Shown here one piece after another: positions 23,823-33,470 of a stretch of 46,190 nucleotides of DNA. The stretch is from NCBI GenBank assembly GCA_018058135.1, contig JAGPCK010000006.1, positions 35,939-82,128 of the forward strand, written 5' to 3'. Below the pieces are notes generated by a model. It was not told the origin of the DNA. It saw only the letters and a program-made list of their open reading frames with translations, and made no database searches. The position numbers were made by a program, and so were the translations under genes. Positions within the stretch are counted from its first letter, which is position 1, and each line of letters opens with the position of its first letter. The DNA is from Bacteroidia bacterium (lineage in GTDB: Bacteria > Bacteroidota > Bacteroidia > UKL13-3).

Positions 23823-23831
23823 ATCATCAGG

Positions 23832-23858
23832 TAAGGGTATTTCAAAGTACCCTTATTT
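23832..23858 (+). terminator. Putative terminator after the TPR gene
   Basis: An 8-bp perfect stem (TAAGGGTA / TACCCTTA) with an 8-base loop is followed by a short T stretch. The stem has only three G-C pairs, so it is moderate at best. It ends eight bases before the transposon target duplication. Confidence 0.5.
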
Positions 23859-23865
23859 GTTTCAA

Positions 23866-23886
23866 ATTCTATTGGCACTAACATAC
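23866..23886 (+). repeat. Transposon left end: target duplication plus terminal inverted repeat
   Basis: ATTCTATT (23866-23873) is the 8-bp duplicated target. GGCACTAACATAC (23874-23886) is the terminal inverted repeat. Confidence 0.92.
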
Positions 23887-23917
23887 AATAGAGGACAAAA
23901 TACATCACCTTATCGGT

Positions 23918-24361
23918 TTACTCGTGTGTCGCTGTCGTTTGGGCGGCTTCTTTGTCCATTCGATTCATTTCATTTACCAACCATGTCGGAAGATAATATG
24001 TATTTATGTCGGTCTGCTTTATCTTTTTATAACCTAAATCAACCGCCATTTCAAAAATCAAATCTAAAAGCCTCTGCTCATGCTCCTTCGTTGACACGTC
24101 CTTTAGGGTTGGCAAGTATGAATTCAAGGCGTGTTGAACCTTTGGACTGTTGTAAAAAGCAATCGGAACAAAATTTAGTGCTTTTACCCATTGTTCAGAA
24201 TACCCTTGATGTGCTCTTAACTGAAATAAAGTTGAAAATACATACTTTTTATCATTTCGTTTTCGAGTGGCTCGATTGTGTAAAAATCCTACATAAAAAG
24301 CAATAACAGGGCTGCTAATAATAGCGATTATCTCAATGTGGTCTTTAATAAATTGTAACAT
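23918..24361 (-). CDS. Transposon passenger: membrane-anchored hypothetical, 147 aa
   Basis: The protein opens with one hydrophobic segment (IIAIISSPVIAFYVGFL), then a basic stretch and a helical cytoplasmic domain (YVFSTLFQLRAHQGYSEQWVKALNFVPIAFY). This pattern of anchor followed by a short helical domain resembles the family I remember as DUF6680, but I cannot verify it. It is divergent from the transposase with 32 bases between starts, so both may share a control region; a -7-like TATCTTTA lies at 24381-24388. Being inside the inverted repeats, it travels with the element. Function unknown. Confidence 0.7.
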   Translation of the reverse strand: MLQFIKDHIEIIAIISSPVIAFYVGFLHNRATRKRNDKKYVFSTLFQLRAHQGYSEQWVKALNFVPIAFYNSPKVQHALNSYLPTLKDVSTKEHEQRLLDLIFEMAVDLGYKKIKQTDINTYYLPTWLVNEMNRMDKEAAQTTATHE

Positions 24362-24393
24362 AGTATTTAGGTTTAGCCTGTAAAGATATAAAA

Positions 24394-25311
24394 ATGAAAG
24401 ATTTTAACAACTTGCTCGAACTCCTTACCTACTTTAAAGACGATACCGTTTGTCGGGAGTATTTAGAGGCTATTCGTTGGGCGGACGGTATTGTTTGTCC
24501 TCATTGTGGCTCTGAGCGTTTTTATAAGTTAAAATCGGGAGTTCAATATAAGTGTGCTTCTAATGTTTGTTATAAGAAGTTCACAGTAACAGTAGGAACT
24601 ATCTTTGATTCTGCTAAGATTCCATTGAGAAAGTGGTTTGTAGCCATGTATCTTGTTACCTCCCATAAAAAGGGTATTAGTTCCTATCAGTTGTCGCGGG
24701 ATATTGGGGTAACGCAGAAAAGCGCGTGGTTTATGCTTCACCGCTTGCGGGAACTGTCTGAAAGTGGAAGTATGGAGAAACTAAAGGGACAGGTCGAGGT
24801 CGATGAATGCTACATAGGCGGCCAAGAGAAAAATAAACACAAGCAAAACAAATCTAATAAGGCTGGGCCGCGTGGTATTAAAACACCTGTTTTGGCTATT
24901 GTGGAACGTGGCGGGGCGGCTCGTGTGCTTACCTTACAGAATGTAAAAAGTAAAAGCATTGTTAACCCTGTTTATGAATTGGTAGAGGAAGGTACAACCG
25001 TAATAACTGACCAGTTCAATGCCTACTATATGCTAAAGGGCGGTTTTAAGCATGAAACAGTAAACCACAGCAAAGACGAGTTTGTGCGCGGGGATATTCA
25101 CACTAACACGGTGGAAGGGTTCTTTTCTATTCTGAAACGGGGTATCTATGGTATATATCACCAAGTAAGCCCAAAACACTTACAACGCTATTGCAATGAG
25201 TTTGCCTTTCGCTATTCAACAAGAGATATGGACGAGGGCGAACGCTTTAACGAAGCATTAGGGAATATGAACAAAGTATTGAGGTATAATAAGCTAATTA
25301 ACAGAAAATGA
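24394..25311 (+). CDS. IS1595-family transposase (ISXO2-like DDE domain)
   Basis: The 305-residue protein has an N-terminal zinc ribbon (CPHCGSERFY...CASNVCYKKFTV) and a helix-turn-helix-like region (GISSYQLSRDIGVTQKSAWFMLHRLREL) for end binding. The catalytic core follows with first Asp in VEVDECYIGG, second Asp in VITDQFNAYY and the NTVEGFFSILKRGIYGIYH segment. This architecture is that of IS1595/ISXO2 transposases. The length is normal and no frameshift is seen, so the enzyme looks active. Its stop overlaps the start of a small downstream membrane-protein frame as ATGA. Confidence 0.95.
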   Translation: MKDFNNLLELLTYFKDDTVCREYLEAIRWADGIVCPHCGSERFYKLKSGVQYKCASNVCYKKFTVTVGTIFDSAKIPLRKWFVAMYLVTSHKKGISSYQLSRDIGVTQKSAWFMLHRLRELSESGSMEKLKGQVEVDECYIGGQEKNKHKQNKSNKAGPRGIKTPVLAIVERGGAARVLTLQNVKSKSIVNPVYELVEEGTTVITDQFNAYYMLKGGFKHETVNHSKDEFVRGDIHTNTVEGFFSILKRGIYGIYHQVSPKHLQRYCNEFAFRYSTRDMDEGERFNEALGNMNKVLRYNKLINRK

Positions 25312-25547
25312 GTATTATTTCAACGGTTTGGAATTGGCTGTGTCGCGTTTCTCTGAGGGATTGGTTAATAACAGCCGCATTAATACTGAGTCTTGTTGCA
25401 TCTTTTTTAAACTTCGGATATTCTCAATACTATCGCGCTCGATATGAAGCCGAGTATCGTAAGAATGTAGAACTACGGGAACAGCTATTGCAACGACAGC
25501 AACAACTAATGTCAGTACTGCAACAATTATCTGAAAAACGTAAATAG
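25308..25547 (+). CDS. Small membrane/coiled-coil protein coupled to the transposase (uncertain)
   Basis: The frame encodes 79 residues: one membrane helix (WLITAALILSLVASFLNFGY) and a charged coiled coil (RYEAEYRKNVELREQLLQRQQQLMSVLQQL). It starts in an ATGA overlap with the transposase stop, a typical coupling signal. However, almost all of it lies opposite the C-terminal third of the minus-strand gene at 25315-25938, which also looks protein-like. Both could be translated, or one may be a shadow. I give the minus-strand gene the higher chance. Confidence 0.35.
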   Translation: MSIISTVWNWLCRVSLRDWLITAALILSLVASFLNFGYSQYYRARYEAEYRKNVELREQLLQRQQQLMSVLQQLSEKRK

Positions 25548-25938
25548 AACCCGTTTTTTTGTTTAGGTTTCTTATAGACTCATTTGTTTCAATTATTGAA
25601 AGGTTTGCTTGTAGGGTTGACTCATTAAGTCTTTTCATTAGCCCCTTACCTTCTTTTTGGTCTAATCTGTCTATTTCCTCGTCTTGCCTATTCTTGATTA
25701 GATTTTCAAAGTAAATAGCACCCTTAATAGGCATTTTTACTGACCTTATATTTCTATCGCTTGGCAATAGGTAAATATATCCGTCTTTGTTTAGGTCTTG
25801 AAATGCGTGTACAGCATCAGAATTTGATATATATGGGAACTTGTCTTCGCGTCTTTTGGTAAACTCTTGCCATAAAATTTCATCATCTACTTCAAATAGT
25901 GATAGTAGCTTGATATACAACTCTTCCTTTTCATTCAT
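25315..25938 (-). CDS. Transposon passenger: hypothetical with membrane helix, 207 aa
   Basis: The N-terminal 90 residues are soluble and look like a small winged-helix-type domain (LYIKLLSLFEVDDEILWQEF, AFQDLNKDGYIYLL, KGAIYFENLI). A helical linker rich in Lys/Glu follows, then one strong membrane helix (VFQIIVAVLTLVVAVVAIAVPVVL), then a charged tail (RDSIENIRSLKKMQQDSVLMRLLL). It lies 10 bases after a small co-oriented frame (25949-26068), supporting a two-gene unit. It converges with, and covers, the 79-residue plus-strand frame. I do not recognise the family; a signalling or immunity-type membrane protein is one possibility. Confidence 0.62.
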   Translation of the reverse strand: MNEKEELYIKLLSLFEVDDEILWQEFTKRREDKFPYISNSDAVHAFQDLNKDGYIYLLPSDRNIRSVKMPIKGAIYFENLIKNRQDEEIDRLDQKEGKGLMKRLNESTLQANLSIIETNESIRNLNKKTGSIYVFQIIVAVLTLVVAVVAIAVPVVLHSYDTRLHIERDSIENIRSLKKMQQDSVLMRLLLTNPSEKRDTANSKPLK

Positions 25939-25948
25939 AAAGAAAGAC

Positions 25949-26068
25949 TTAATTATCCTTTTTAGGCTTTTGGGGCGGCTTTGCAGCCAGTTTTAAGAGT
26001 TCATTGAAACTCTTATTCACCTTTATTTTTTTGTGCTTATCGGGCTTTTCCTGCTTCTTTTCTCCCAT
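25949..26068 (-). CDS. Small basic protein, 39 aa, upstream of the 207-aa passenger
   Basis: A short frame from ATG at 26068 encodes MGEKKQEKPDKHKKIK, then VNKSFNELLKLAAKPPQKPKKDN. The Lys-rich start, an FNELLKLA helix and a Pro/Lys tail resemble small proteins I have seen in Bacteroidota accessory regions. It stops 10 bases before the start of the 207-residue gene and may be co-translated with it. Too short for certainty. Function unknown. Confidence 0.45.
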   Translation of the reverse strand: MGEKKQEKPDKHKKIKVNKSFNELLKLAAKPPQKPKKDN

Positions 26069-26130
26069 ATACACGAAGTTAAGAAAATTATAAGACTTTG
26101 CTATATTTACAGCCCTAAATACTTAAAGCT

Positions 26131-26568
26131 ATGCACGAACTACTACAAAACTACAAACCAAGTTTCGATTATGGGCCTATTATCGAAAGGACAATTAGCC
26201 CAGTTATTATGAAGCCAAACACATTTAAATGCGAGTGTACGCTTTCAATACTTAAAAATCAAAACCCCAAATATGTTATTTCACAGATAGTAAAAATATA
26301 TAATAACGAAGGTGGCACAACTTATGAATATAAGAGTGCAGACCCTTTTGATTTTGTATTTAAAGCACCGTATGAATTTAATTCAGACAAAATAAATAAA
26401 ACCGAAATTGATATTTTCAAAGAGGGGCTAAATAACGGCTTTATCCAAATTAAAAATATGGTAATAGCCAGTAAACACCCATTAAGTTTAGACTTTTTTC
26501 AAAAACATATTATCGATATAGCCATTGCCCAGACTCATATACAAAAATATTTTCTTCGAGGTAATTAG
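26131..26568 (+). CDS. Transposon passenger: hypothetical, 145 aa
   Basis: The protein has no signal peptide or membrane segment. Composition is mixed alpha/beta with an AT-rich codon choice (many Ile, Asn, Lys). The central part (CECTLSILKNQNPKYVISQIVKIYNN) looks like a beta-strand pair and helix, and the C-terminus (FFQKHIIDIAIAQTHIQKYFLRGN) is helical. No motif or family is recognised. A -7-like TATATTTA lies about 25 bases upstream of the ATG. It is the last plus-strand gene inside the element, 155 bases from its right end. Confidence 0.6.
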   Translation: MHELLQNYKPSFDYGPIIERTISPVIMKPNTFKCECTLSILKNQNPKYVISQIVKIYNNEGGTTYEYKSADPFDFVFKAPYEFNSDKINKTEIDIFKEGLNNGFIQIKNMVIASKHPLSLDFFQKHIIDIAIAQTHIQKYFLRGN

Positions 26569-26710
26569 GGTATTTGCGAAGCATAGTTTTTATTCCAAGT
26601 CCTTTTAGCTGAAGCCTCGTTCTTAACTTAAACTTTGCCCTTGCTTTAACCTTGCGTTTAAGCATTGCCATTTTACGTTTTCTTTTGGTCACTAACCTTT
26701 GTGCTTTTTA

Positions 26711-26731
26711 GTATGTTAGTGCCATTCTATT
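26711..26731 (-). repeat. Transposon right end: terminal inverted repeat plus target duplication
   Basis: GTATGTTAGTGCC (26711-26723) is the exact complement of the left end. ATTCTATT (26724-26731) repeats the left flank. Confidence 0.92.
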
Positions 26732-26798
26732 TAACATAATATTAATTATAAGACAAATATAAAACGCATATAATTGATTATAAGTCGTATAAATACGG

Positions 26799-28771: not shown

Positions 28772-29722
28772 TTATAGTTTGTGACAATGTTCAGCTATTC
28801 GTTTAAGCAAAGCTTCAAATTCGGGTTGTCCCTGATAATACAGAGCTGCTGTTAGTTTATACCTTTTAGTGAAATCCGCTCTCAATTCTTCTGATGTCAG
28901 TAAAAAGGCTTCATTTTTTGAAATAGGAATTTCTAAGTCTGCCTTAGGAAATCTTTTTTGTTTGTGGGCAGTATATTCTGCTGTACCTATAAAGCCTAAC
29001 ACATCAGGATGCTCTAGAAGACAATAGACGTCATAATATTGGCGCATAAAATTGCCACTTCGGGCTCCTCCATTCTGCTCTTGACGAAATTTGGTTGCAA
29101 TAGTCTGGAGTTTCTCAACAAATGTATAACCGGGATGATAGCAAACAATATCAACTCCTCTGTTATCAATGATGTCAACGCTGGAATCAATTGCTTTATC
29201 GTATGCCCATGAGCTTATTGTAATTTTTGTATTTGGTGTTACATCATCAAACCCAGTTTCGAGAAGAATACCTTCTTTCATTCCATGTACTTGATCAACG
29301 GTATTATCATAAATCAATCTGATTCCTCCGCTTCGATAAGAGGTTTCATCATCGAACGCAGTATCGCGTACAACTGAGTTTATTCCCGGGATTTTAATTT
29401 CACCGGCTAACCAATCATAAAATTCTTTACGCTTTGCAACATTATTCTTGTTGTTATTTTTAGGATTTTCATTGATGCCAAGCTCATCAGGAGGTTTAAT
29501 ATGAATATCAATGTCTTCAGAGAAACGATGAATAACTTTATAACCCTTAGATAAAGATGTTCCTCCTTTTAATTCAAAAGAGAAACCTTGGCTTTTAAGG
29601 CCATATAAGACATGCATAATCCAGTAGTCTTTTTCTACCAGTCCTGCTTGTATTCCTTTTTCTTCTGCTACAATGTTTAGTAGGGCTGAGAAATCTTTAT
29701 GATTGTGCAAATAATCAGGCAT
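28772..29722 (-). CDS. AbiEii/AbiGii-family nucleotidyltransferase toxin
   Basis: The 316-residue protein has the nucleotidyltransferase signature of the AbiEii group: ELKGGTSLSKGYKVIHRFSEDIDIHI, with GGTSLSK at 53-59 and the metal-binding SEDID at 68-72. The lysine-rich NNKNNVAKRKEFYDW and CYHPGYTFVEKLQTIATKFR segments are also typical. In studied type IV systems the toxin transfers nucleotides to RNA (for example tRNA 3' ends) and arrests growth during phage infection. The start overlaps the upstream antitoxin-type gene by eight bases, the expected layout. All core residues seem intact. Confidence 0.9.
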   Translation of the reverse strand: MPDYLHNHKDFSALLNIVAEEKGIQAGLVEKDYWIMHVLYGLKSQGFSFELKGGTSLSKGYKVIHRFSEDIDIHIKPPDELGINENPKNNNKNNVAKRKEFYDWLAGEIKIPGINSVVRDTAFDDETSYRSGGIRLIYDNTVDQVHGMKEGILLETGFDDVTPNTKITISSWAYDKAIDSSVDIIDNRGVDIVCYHPGYTFVEKLQTIATKFRQEQNGGARSGNFMRQYYDVYCLLEHPDVLGFIGTAEYTAHKQKRFPKADLEIPISKNEAFLLTSEELRADFTKRYKLTAALYYQGQPEFEALLKRIAEHCHKL

Positions 29723-30308
29723 ATTGTTGCTCTGATTTACTTAATAAAGGCTGTAATAGTCTTTTGGTTCTAGTATTTCCATATTCTTCTAATGAAGATT
29801 TGAGCTTTTGAGAATTTAAACCAGATACTTTTGTAAGTACTTTATTTAAAACTTCATTCTGATCCTCTGCCAATTGCTCCAGATTATTGACCAGATCTAC
29901 TAACAAAAACTCTTCTGTAACTTTATTAGGAAAATGATGTTTTACTTGAAAATCAAATGTTCTGTTTCCCAACTTTATTTCACCATGTCGCTTATGATTA
30001 TAAACAACTCGTTTATTATAAAGCTGTGTAGTGCCAACGCCTAAGCTATTGTATGTGTTAGGTGAAGTAATAAGAAATCTTTTGTCTTTTAGAAAACTAG
30101 CTATCAAAACATCTTCTTCAGGAGGAGTTTTCCCAAATGCAGTTTCCTTAGGAAAATAATATAACCCTTGAGAAAGTTTTTCAAGAGTTCCTTCTTCAAC
30201 TAATTGCTCTAAATGTCTATCAACAGATTTAGACCATATAGTTAAGTCCCCTCTCCTATATACTTTACCCCTCTTTAAATGCTTTTTAAGTTCATCTAAC
30301 TGTGCCAT
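29715..30308 (-). CDS. DUF6088 / AbiEi-like antitoxin and repressor
   Basis: The protein is about 197 residues from ATG 30308; a TTG six bases upstream would also fit the strong Shine-Dalgarno AGGAGG. The N-terminus is a winged helix (LKKHLKRGKVYRRGDLTIWSKSVDRHLEQLVEEGTLEKLSQGLYYFPK) of the type that binds DNA. The remainder (LITSPNTYNSLGVGTTQLYNKRVVYNHKRHGEIKLGNRTFDF) matches the Bacteroidota family known as DUF6088 (from memory). AbiEi proteins neutralise the toxin effect and repress their own operon. It is the first gene of the pair, directly behind a perfect -7 box. Confidence 0.85.
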   Translation of the reverse strand: MAQLDELKKHLKRGKVYRRGDLTIWSKSVDRHLEQLVEEGTLEKLSQGLYYFPKETAFGKTPPEEDVLIASFLKDKRFLITSPNTYNSLGVGTTQLYNKRVVYNHKRHGEIKLGNRTFDFQVKHHFPNKVTEEFLLVDLVNNLEQLAEDQNEVLNKVLTKVSGLNSQKLKSSLEEYGNTRTKRLLQPLLSKSEQQYA

Positions 30309-30326
30309 AATCAATTATTCCTCCTT

Positions 30327-30690: not shown

Positions 30691-31092
30691 TTATATAATT
30701 ATACAAATATCAGCTAAGGTTGCCTGTAAATCTTTTCGGCCCATTAAGCCTAAAATAAGAGCATGAGCAAATCCAATATCTTCGAAATTTGCACTTTCTG
30801 GAGCATGCACACAACTTAGCCCAAGACCGTCACATTGATTCTTGGTAACAAAAACACCTAAATGTGATTGTTGATTGTAAAGTAGTTCAATTGATTGGAC
30901 AAGTTGAATGATACTAGTAGATAATCCATTAATATCCCTAACTGGATCTGGCCTGAATGCTAACCTTGTTATGGCTTTTCTGCCGTCAGGGAGAATCTTG
31001 ATGTAATCATTCCCATCTGCATTTTGATTTTTTGTAGGGACTTTTCTTAGCAACTCATCTTCAGGCTGAATTTCATAGGAAGGGTCAATCAT
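30691..31092 (-). CDS. Cassette gene 3: hypothetical, 133 aa
   Basis: I chose ATG 31092 (MIDPSYEIQPEDELLRKVP) because it overlaps the stop of the preceding gene by eight bases (ATGATTGA); an in-frame start at 31122 would add ten residues. The protein has no membrane segment. Features are an N-terminal LLRKVPTKN, a central RLAFRPDPVRDINGLSTSI and a C-terminal SANFEDIGFAHALILGLMGRKDLQATLADI. The R-x-VP, GLS and HA elements in this order recall a widespread family of small unknown proteins, which I cannot name. The gene closes the operon led by the DUF4209 protein. Confidence 0.65.
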   Translation of the reverse strand: MIDPSYEIQPEDELLRKVPTKNQNADGNDYIKILPDGRKAITRLAFRPDPVRDINGLSTSIIQLVQSIELLYNQQSHLGVFVTKNQCDGLGLSCVHAPESANFEDIGFAHALILGLMGRKDLQATLADICIII

Positions 31093-31588
31093 ATTGTAGG
31101 AGATTTTCTTGAATACTGTCAATTAAAAGACCTATTGAACCTATGCTATAATGCTCTTCAGTTACATTATTGTGTTCTCCTTCGTAACGGGTAAAGATGA
31201 TTGATTCATCTTGATTTATTTCAATATCGGCTTTTACATCTTCTCCGTCCAATTCTATTTGGAAACCACCATTGGGCATTGGGAATACATGAATAGCAAC
31301 ATTATGTTCGATAAGTTCTTCATCTTTAAGCTTGTCAATTATAACATGGCCTATTTCTATTGCATTTGAAGAATACATCGCGTTTGCAATTTCCTCATCG
31401 ATTATTTGATCTCTGAATGCTTCTAACTTTTTATGCAGTGAAATGTATTTTAAATCCTTAGAAGTACTGTTACGCTTTCTATGCATATCTTTCGTTTCAA
31501 CTAAAGATATTATTATAAAGTGTTTATTTAGCTCAATTATTCTGTCGCTAATCGCAGATTTATTTAATTCAACAGCTTTAATACTCAT
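31085..31588 (-). CDS. Cassette gene 2: hypothetical, 167 aa
   Basis: The protein is soluble. Residues about 1-85 are helical and charged (AVELNKSAISDRIIELNKHF, LHKKLEAFRDQIIDEEIANA). The rest is beta-rich with a striking FPMPNGGFQIELDGEDVKADIEINQDESIIFTRY pattern (P-x-GG-x-Q-x-E, then two strands), and ends in a helix (IGLLIDSIQENLLQYD). The GG-Q-E strand pattern appears in small proteins encoded beside toxins or defence genes, though I cannot assign a family. It begins one base after the DUF4209 stop and overlaps gene 3 by eight bases, so all three products are probably made together. Confidence 0.7.
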   Translation of the reverse strand: MSIKAVELNKSAISDRIIELNKHFIIISLVETKDMHRKRNSTSKDLKYISLHKKLEAFRDQIIDEEIANAMYSSNAIEIGHVIIDKLKDEELIEHNVAIHVFPMPNGGFQIELDGEDVKADIEINQDESIIFTRYEGEHNNVTEEHYSIGSIGLLIDSIQENLLQYD

Positions 31589-31589
31589 T

Positions 31590-33470
31590 TTATTCCGGTT
31601 GCTGAAATTTATAATGTGCTAATTTAAGAATAATCGATAAGATTAAAAAGGGAGCATCGATTCCATATTCAATATCATCTCTTAATCCATGCGCAATTTT
31701 ATTCCTTAGGTTTAACCCCATTTTATTAACCATTACATAGGTTATAAAATAATATTCTTCCTCACGGAGATATGGCTTTAAATCTCTTATTAAATCATCA
31801 AACAATTTCTCCATCACAATCCGCATGTCCCTTTCATTCGGCTTAAAGGTTACAATACCTGCCTTGTAGCACATTTCCCTTAATAGATATTCAATCTTCA
31901 TAGCCAATGAATCAGTAGCACAAATGAAGTTAGGTGTATATGAATTATCTTCTGTCCATTTTTCCAATTCATGAAATAACAATTCAATACCCGGTTTAAT
32001 CAACTCAAGATGGCTTACTGAATAATCCCTACCATGCGTTCTGCGTACACTTGGCTGACCTATCCAAGTTTTAGATAGGAAATCTAATAATCCACTTGCA
32101 GATAATTTGTCGGCTTTTATTGCTTCAATAGCAAGAGAGATAAGAATTTGACTGCCTATTTGAAAATTAAACTCATAAGTCTGTAAGAAATTGAATTCTT
32201 TTTTTTCCTCAGCTGTACTATATACATCAACAGTATTTCCAAATTTATCCTGAATACTTGTTGGGAATAAATTCGTTAAAACAGTCTGTTTAGCCTGCTC
32301 TTCACTCCATGCTCGTAGCTCTACGATTGATCTGAACATGGTAGTTATTGATAGTTCATTTATTATATCTGCTTCTGAGCCATCTGTTACTACACGCTTA
32401 ATGTTCTCAAATATTTCTACAGAAGCTTCATCTGGTAAGGATTGTCGTATTTCTGATAACCTAATATCCTCCCTATTCTTTTGATATAATTGAGAAAGGC
32501 GATCAACATCTCCTTGGCTTTTTATTTCCTTATAGATTCTGATAGCTTTTTCAATGAAAGTTACATGAGCAAGGTTACTGTTTTTATCTGCATTCTCTGC
32601 TAAAGCTTCATATTGTTGGGCTGAAAGCCTTTGCCACTCGTATTTAGTGTTACTAATCTTTTTAGCAAGCTTATAGCTAACGTCAGCAATATATATCGCC
32701 CCCCAGGTATTTCTTTTTGCTTCTTCAAGATAAGCTATATAATTTTTATCCAAAACTGCTGAAAGATCATGGCTTTGAAATAAGAGCAAATAATCGATTA
32801 TCAAATTTGTAGAGTCTAAAATAAAACGCATAGAACCGTTATTATTAAGAGACCACTCTAAATGTCTCTTATATGATTTAGCCGCAACTGTATCTATAAA
32901 TGCACTAATTTTTTCATCAGATTTCCTTCTTGAATTTCCTATAAAGAAAACGTGCTTAATAGAATTATAGTAATGTAATGCTGCGTAGTTCTTATCATCA
33001 GGAGAAATTTTACTTATATGCTGTTCCGCAAGTGTATCTATTTGTTTAAGAAGTTCTATAACGTCATTATTATTCTTTAAGTGATTAGCATAAAAAAGAA
33101 ACAATCCAAATTCAGTTTTTAAAAAGATATTCTTTGTTTCTTTATATCTTTTTAACACATGTTCATAATCGTCTTTGTAAAAATATCTTTTATCAGGCCA
33201 CTCTACATCTACTTCTTCTCCATCCTCATTTTTTCCTTTACCAGACATCTTAGGCTTTAAGCCCTCCTCAGTAGTTTTAACAAATTGTATTGCTTCTCGT
33301 TCAATATTTAATAAACGTAGAATATTACTGTCTTTGAGAGGTTCCTTTTCATTAATCTTTGAAAGTGTATCGAGGATATCTATGTAAGCCTTGTTAACGT
33401 CAATTTCTGGATGACCTTCGGAAAAGTCCTTTTTTTCTAATTCTGTATAAAAGCCTTCGACTTCTTTCAT
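31590..33470 (-). CDS. Cassette gene 1: DUF4209 protein with HEPN-like RNxxxHG motif
   Basis: The 626-residue protein is almost entirely helical and soluble. The N-terminal 450 residues are repeats of charged helices without a named motif. The C-terminus (about 510-626) contains FICATDSLAMKIEYLLREMCYKAGIVTF and NKMGLNLRNKIAHGLRDDIEYG. The RNKIAHG (Arg589 to Gly595) is the RNxxxHG signature of the DUF4209 domain and fits the R-x4-H motif of HEPN ribonucleases, so RNA cleavage is a reasonable guess. It leads a three-gene operon, has an exact -7 box 20 bases upstream, and borders a type IV toxin-antitoxin system. No direct evidence of activity. Confidence 0.8.
   Translation of the reverse strand: MKEVEGFYTELEKKDFSEGHPEIDVNKAYIDILDTLSKINEKEPLKDSNILRLLNIEREAIQFVKTTEEGLKPKMSGKGKNEDGEEVDVEWPDKRYFYKDDYEHVLKRYKETKNIFLKTEFGLFLFYANHLKNNNDVIELLKQIDTLAEQHISKISPDDKNYAALHYYNSIKHVFFIGNSRRKSDEKISAFIDTVAAKSYKRHLEWSLNNNGSMRFILDSTNLIIDYLLLFQSHDLSAVLDKNYIAYLEEAKRNTWGAIYIADVSYKLAKKISNTKYEWQRLSAQQYEALAENADKNSNLAHVTFIEKAIRIYKEIKSQGDVDRLSQLYQKNREDIRLSEIRQSLPDEASVEIFENIKRVVTDGSEADIINELSITTMFRSIVELRAWSEEQAKQTVLTNLFPTSIQDKFGNTVDVYSTAEEKKEFNFLQTYEFNFQIGSQILISLAIEAIKADKLSASGLLDFLSKTWIGQPSVRRTHGRDYSVSHLELIKPGIELLFHELEKWTEDNSYTPNFICATDSLAMKIEYLLREMCYKAGIVTFKPNERDMRIVMEKLFDDLIRDLKPYLREEEYYFITYVMVNKMGLNLRNKIAHGLRDDIEYGIDAPFLILSIILKLAHYKFQQPE

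Follow-up and report, generated by a model that had tools for sequence, protein, structure and literature searches.

The window analysed here, a 46,190-nt stretch of contig JAGPCK010000006.1 (positions 35,939 to 82,128) from a metagenome-assembled genome (MAG) of a Bacteroidia bacterium (GCA_018058135.1), carries a complete IS1595-family element of 2,850 bp at positions 23874-26723. With a probability of roughly 0.72, we consider this element to be an IS1595-family insertion sequence with passenger genes (tIS), belonging to a sublineage that inserts next to dif, the site of chromosome-dimer resolution. A first-pass annotation of the same DNA had described a complete IS1595-family transposon with passenger genes, and the ends, the target duplication and the transposase domains confirm this to the base. 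The most informative fact about the element, its location beside dif, was absent from that annotation.

Insertion beside dif

Between the right end of the window element and the XerD arm of the chromosomal dif lie 5 bp (Table 1), and the insertion leaves this dif whole. This dif is unique within the window (0/100 shuffles), and the GC skew flips from positive to negative at about 26 kb, that is, at dif. The XerD arm, which reads TTATGTTAAAT in reverse, is the one that PMC10132070 lists for dif and pdif sites. Sites of the ATTTAACATAATATTAATTAT type occur in many Bacteroidia families, usually once per genome, with a reversed-pattern control near zero. The dif pattern used for the whole class deviated by one base, and the two mismatches allowed still covered the true spacing.

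Two routes led to a single close relative, which appears as G046 in the genome set and as JAIBAK010000006.1 in the contig set and belongs to a congeneric MAG. It was the sole match in a scan of the genome contigs with the window transposase. This sister element (L027:3339-6178; 2,840 bp, with the perfect duplication AATAACTA) lies, as does the window element, just beyond the gyrA-TPR operon. Its insertion point is the same to the base pair, again 5 bp from the XerD arm; its orientation is opposite, and its dif is whole. Aligned in the gyrA-TPR direction, the flanks read ...CAAATTCTATT / element / ATTCTATTTAACATAATATTAATTATAAG in the window and ...TGATAGTTATT / element / TAGTTATTTAACATAATATTAATTATAGG in the sister locus. 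A third congener, G047, is without the element and reads ...AAACATTATTTAACATAATATTAATTATAAG, an empty dif with no leftover duplication. The block common to the flanks of all three genomes is dif.

Within each genome, the two copies of the duplication are identical at 8/8 positions, yet they differ at 4/8 positions between the window and the sister locus. One shared insertion is disfavoured because the copies within a genome should then have diverged as much as those between genomes. A rough likelihood model gives at most 3e-9 for one insertion against 4e-3 for two recent insertions; even as a crude estimate, it prefers two insertions about a million-fold. We read the flanks as those of independent, dif-directed insertions. 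Chance would not be expected to bring two such events to one base pair, and the landing at the same spot in two species suggests that the transposon is steered to dif. Independent insertion at a fixed distance from dif, the functional mark of a dif hunter, is therefore what we find, in two cases only.

Alternative explanations

Several points weigh against dif targeting. The whole basis for it is a pair of insertions, the only ones known, in MAGs of a single genus. No other dif-side insertion of the same geometry appeared in a 395-genome sample of the class, in a search that lists only sites within two mismatches of the pattern. A fixed orientation, the hallmark of the ISAjo2-type dif hunters, is absent here. 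Finally, none of 16 other delimited IS1595-type elements (L038, L039, L042, L043, L045, L047, L113 and L160-L168) has dif at its junctions; their joined flanks differ from the dif core at 8 or more positions, against 0 and 1 mismatch for the window element and its sister. Because these 16 lie away from dif, the preference would belong to this sublineage alone. Their positions, together with the fact that passenger-carrying insertion sequences are already known, would also fit an ordinary passenger-carrying IS1595 element without a target preference, found beside dif twice by chance or as a tolerated intergenic insertion near the terminus. We consider this unlikely, since the same base pair was hit in two species of roughly 3 Mb each by single copies of the sublineage, and tolerance alone leaves the base-pair identity unexplained.

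One ancestral dif insertion could instead have been inherited by both species and, in one of the lineages, later inverted between its ends. This would place the element at the same site in two congeners, and the synonymous divergence, being saturated, is compatible with old age. However, duplications that are perfect within genomes and half different between them contradict such a history, the G047 site bears no trace of a former occupant, and an exact inversion inside the 13-bp ends would be needed; we judge it improbable. A different route to the same place is XerCD recombination. Phages and islands among the integrative mobile elements exploiting Xer (IMEX) integrate by XerCD and duplicate dif. 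The window element shares with them its location at dif, and placement by XerCD, with the target duplication incidental, would account for that contact. The ends of the element, however, are of the transposase type and are bordered by an 8-bp duplication, and there is just one dif: the far end bears neither another dif nor a half-site. We therefore give this explanation very little credence. Insertion by the transposase beside dif remains our preferred reading.

Boundaries and genes of the element

The terminal inverted repeats match at 13/13 positions and begin with GG, and the 8-bp duplication ATTCTATT is present twice; GG ends and a duplication of this length are both traits of the IS1595 family. 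The first-pass annotation had described ends and duplication alike as perfect, and the coordinates in Table 1 bear it out. Besides the two ends, no further exact copy of GGCACTAACATAC occurs in the window. The extended end arms are 85% complementary across 27 nt. When 10 kb were scanned for inverted ends bordered by an 8-bp duplication, the window element was by far the top pair (13/14), the next pair (10/14) being chance-like. Genes other than the transposase lie between the ends, as expected of a tIS, and the element is single-copy in its own genome (a 3.02-Mb assembly in 127 contigs).

Table 1. Features of the window element and its flanks (window positions).
Feature	Position	Strand	Remarks
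Hairpin, probable terminator of the gyrA-TPR operon	23828..23859	+	Left flank of the insertion; predicted fold, -17 kcal/mol
Left target-site duplication copy	23866..23873	.	8 bp, ATTCTATT; direct reading and duplication scan
Left terminal inverted repeat	23874..23886	+	GGCACTAACATAC, exact match
DUF6680 protein, 147 aa	23918..24361	-	N-terminal hydrophobic helix; PF20385, E 2.8e-25
IS1595-family transposase, 305 aa, intact	24394..25311	+	PF12762, E 3.8e-42; PF12760, E 2.6e-13; NF033547, 203 bits against a cut-off of 75
Predicted single-pass transmembrane ORF, 79 aa	25308..25547	+	Overlooked in the first-pass annotation
207-aa ORF	25315..25938	-	One strongly hydrophobic helix (residues 137-155, approximately); ORF missing from the sister element
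Small basic peptide, 41 aa	25949..26074	-	39 aa from an inner ATG at 26068; family recurring in Bacteroidia IS1595 elements
Passenger protein, 145 aa	26131..26568	+	Variable cargo; sub-threshold PF11243, E 1.3e-4, 22.5 bits against a cut-off of 27
Right terminal inverted repeat	26711..26723	-	Exact match to GGCACTAACATAC
Right target-site duplication copy	26724..26731	.	8 bp, ATTCTATT; final 3 bp are the opening 3 bp of dif
Chromosomal dif, intact	26729..26756	+	XerD arm ATTTAACATAA (26729-26739), spacer TATTAA (6 bp), XerC arm TTATAAGACAA

The transposase, already annotated as intact, has the ISXO2-like DDE domain and the N-terminal zinc ribbon that characterise the IS1595 family. Its Pfam and NCBIfam matches are to IS1595 models, and at least 15 of 16 aligned sequences retain D137/D206/E241/K248 and the cysteines of the zinc ribbon. 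The DUF6680 gene is divergent from it, with 32 bp separating the start codons. The start of the 79-aa ORF overlaps the transposase stop (ATGA); nearly all of this ORF runs antisense to the 3' third of the 207-aa ORF, and a 53-aa hydrophobic ORF occupies the counterpart position in the sister element. The annotated 147-aa and 145-aa ORFs exist as described. The same holds for the 207-aa ORF and the 39-aa ORF that had been named its companion, but the 39/41-aa peptide is not specific to the 207-aa gene.

Homology searches gave little for the passengers. The 207-aa protein has weak PHROG matches only, among them a transcription regulator (E 0.01), and neither it nor the 145-aa protein has relatives in the plasmid or viral-contig searches; the DUF6680 protein found no match in the plasmid searches. 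BLASTP gave no support for relating the 207-aa protein to a 233-aa protein of L163, or the 145-aa protein to PD-T4-9_C. The predicted model of the DUF6680 protein (pLDDT 67, all-helical) had no PDB match at E <1, the AlphaFold model of the 145-aa protein (pLDDT 37) was not used, and a search of solved structures yielded nothing useful. A very basic 60-aa ORF near the right end (26510-26692, minus strand) matched nothing in the libraries, and the sister element showed no counterpart.

Conserved core genes and variable cargo

Between the window element and its sister, the transposase is 72% identical, the DUF6680 protein 56% and the small peptide 64%. The corresponding dN/dS ratios are about 0.13, 0.18 and 0.17, which are rough because dS is saturated (for DUF6680, dN is 0.38 and dS about 2). 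With that limit, the ratios point to purifying selection on all three genes. In place of the 145-aa and 207-aa proteins of the window element, the sister carries a 205-aa and a 97-aa protein, and its 97-aa membrane ORF is unrelated to the 207-aa ORF. Because the transposase, DUF6680 and the peptide are shared and the other genes differ, we distinguish a conserved core from exchangeable cargo. The core would consist of these three genes, and the cargo is probably of a type that benefits the host or the element. The first-pass annotation had treated all passengers uniformly, which does not hold: at least two, the 147-aa and 39/41-aa genes, look like genes maintained by the element. The comparison it had proposed, of elements with the same kind of ends for differing cargo, came out positive, both for the sister and for other relatives bounded by terminal repeats and target duplications. 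DUF6680 is not exclusive to IS1595 elements, because the DUF6680 genes in G520 and G162 have no IS1595 transposase among the neighbouring ORFs that were read.

The small peptide belongs to a family with a consensus of roughly KKKRAxKYExKLxIxGTFxDVIKAxVxxxxKKKK and without a Pfam or NCBIfam name. A two-row profile matched only itself and chance-level sequences, and six rows were needed; the six-peptide profile then recovered a held-out member beside the L030 transposase at E 2.7e-12, the best shuffled control reaching 0.03. Searching 237 Bacteroidia genomes with the six-row alignment placed the peptide at 15 sites in 14 genomes, 11 of which are new once three query members and one previously found site are subtracted. 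An IS1595 transposase lies within 4 kb of the peptide at 8/11 of these. Around all eight, a scan for a perfect 8-bp duplication with inverted ends gave ends matching at 12-14/14 in seven cases and at 10/14 in L163. A further site, L167:1613-5159, has the peptide, IS1595-like ends and a perfect 8-bp duplication without a transposase, and is probably a non-autonomous element. The remaining two, L169 and L170, have neither a transposase nor ends with a duplication. The peptide may act as a transposition helper or regulator. On a Methylocystis plasmid, a 60-aa peptide resembling the Bacteroidia family lies close after an IS1595 transposase (L064:4412-4594), and a wider spread of the family is possible.

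Cargo of related elements

Related elements carry genes of recognisable type. The element L160:796-4537, bounded by terminal repeats and a target duplication, encodes proteins similar to PD-T4-9 A (E 2.1e-9) and C (E 3.3e-35), with a 117-aa ORF between them. The 3,951-bp IS1595 element L168:4154-8104, with 20/20 ends and the duplication ATATTTTA, carries an HsdM-like methylase and an HsdS-like protein, resembling a type I restriction-modification system. The unbounded peptide locus L169 contains an AbiLi/AbiLii-like pair. By eye and without profile support, an RX4H motif as in HEPN RNases can be recognised in the 205-aa cargo protein of the sister element (RDIAAH) and in a 198-aa protein of L164 (RNVFAH). 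Also by eye, the IS1595 elements L038, L161 and L166 have in common passenger proteins of 132-144 aa that begin with a coiled coil and end in a winged-helix-like part.

Judged from these gene contents, the IS1595 relatives may plausibly carry defence or toxin-immunity cargo. It is more tentative to suppose that the passengers of the window element form such a module and are the reason for its persistence, an idea compatible with dif targeting. The PD-T4-9-, Hsd- and AbiL-like genes of relatives and peptide-linked loci speak for it, as does the HEPN-type motif of the sister's cargo. Against this, no passenger of the window element matches a PADLOC model at E up to 1 or a known structure, and the 147-aa and 39/41-aa genes have been kept along with the transposase, not swapped like cargo.

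Outside the element, 2 kb past dif, lies an AbiEi/AbiEii-like pair (28772-30314, minus strand; PADLOC E 1.6e-90 and 1.4e-71; PF08843, E 4.7e-26). Beyond it, a 626-aa protein with DUF4209 (31085-33470, minus strand), which small ORFs adjoin, matches the candidate defence family PDC-S39 at E 1.4e-18. These two matches suggest that the stretch beside dif is defence-rich.

Proposed mechanism

We propose that the transposase recognises either XerD bound at dif or the dif DNA itself, perhaps assisted in targeting by the DUF6680 protein or the small basic peptide. The enzyme would cut at two staggered positions separated by 8 bp, of which one lies 5 bp outside the XerD arm and the other 3 bp within it, and repair would then leave dif whole. 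As virtually every host possesses a dif, and dif is intergenic, such an insertion site would be available as well as harmless. A single target on each chromosome would also explain why there is one copy per genome.

Relation to known systems

Passenger-carrying insertion sequences are a known class (Siguier, Gagnevin and Chandler 2009, as cited in PMC7986276). The window element shares with the IS1595 members of this class the transposase domains, the GG-starting inverted ends, the 8-bp duplication and the presence of passenger genes; it differs in that its sublineage is found at dif and carries DUF6680 and a conserved small basic peptide. The closest functional parallel is the ISAjo2-type dif hunters of the IS1202 family. 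According to PMC10132070, these insert 5 bp from the XerC arm in a single orientation with 5-bp duplications, and have a TnsB-like transposase of 441-457 aa and TGT/ACA ends. Common to both are the distance of 5 bp from a Xer arm, an intact dif and the lack of a recognisable dedicated targeting protein. In contrast to the ISAjo2 type, with its Tn7 TnsB-like enzyme, the window element has a 305-aa IS1595 transposase, GG ends and passenger genes, and it and its sister lie on the XerD side in either orientation with 8-bp duplications. The window element is thus not a member of the ISAjo2/IS1202 type.

Tn5053/Tn402 target the res sites of plasmids and transposons by means of a multi-protein tni system. 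Transposition aimed at a site of site-specific recombination would be shared with the window element, whereas the transposases are unrelated. The abstract of PMC7765201 terms these transposons res site hunters.

Both dif-hunting insertion sequences and passenger-carrying IS1595 elements are therefore already known. We found no description of dif targeting by IS1595 elements in the set of open-access papers searched, outside which most subscription journals fall, and within that set it appears to be new. We are somewhat inclined to regard the sublineage as a second, independently evolved kind of dif hunter, in which an IS1595 transposase would read the XerD side of dif from either orientation with helpers encoded by the element: the membrane protein with DUF6680 and a family of small basic peptides common to many IS1595 elements, some with defence-type cargo.

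Significance

Few transposons choose a single site that is both safe and nearly universal. The small-peptide family provides a handle for compact IS1595 carriers, some with anti-phage-type cargo, whose genes are now listed as hypothetical in Bacteroidota. If dif targeting is true, an ordinary single-transposase family would have evolved insertion at the XerD side of dif, in parallel to ISAjo2, and how a DDE transposase reads XerCD-dif would become testable.

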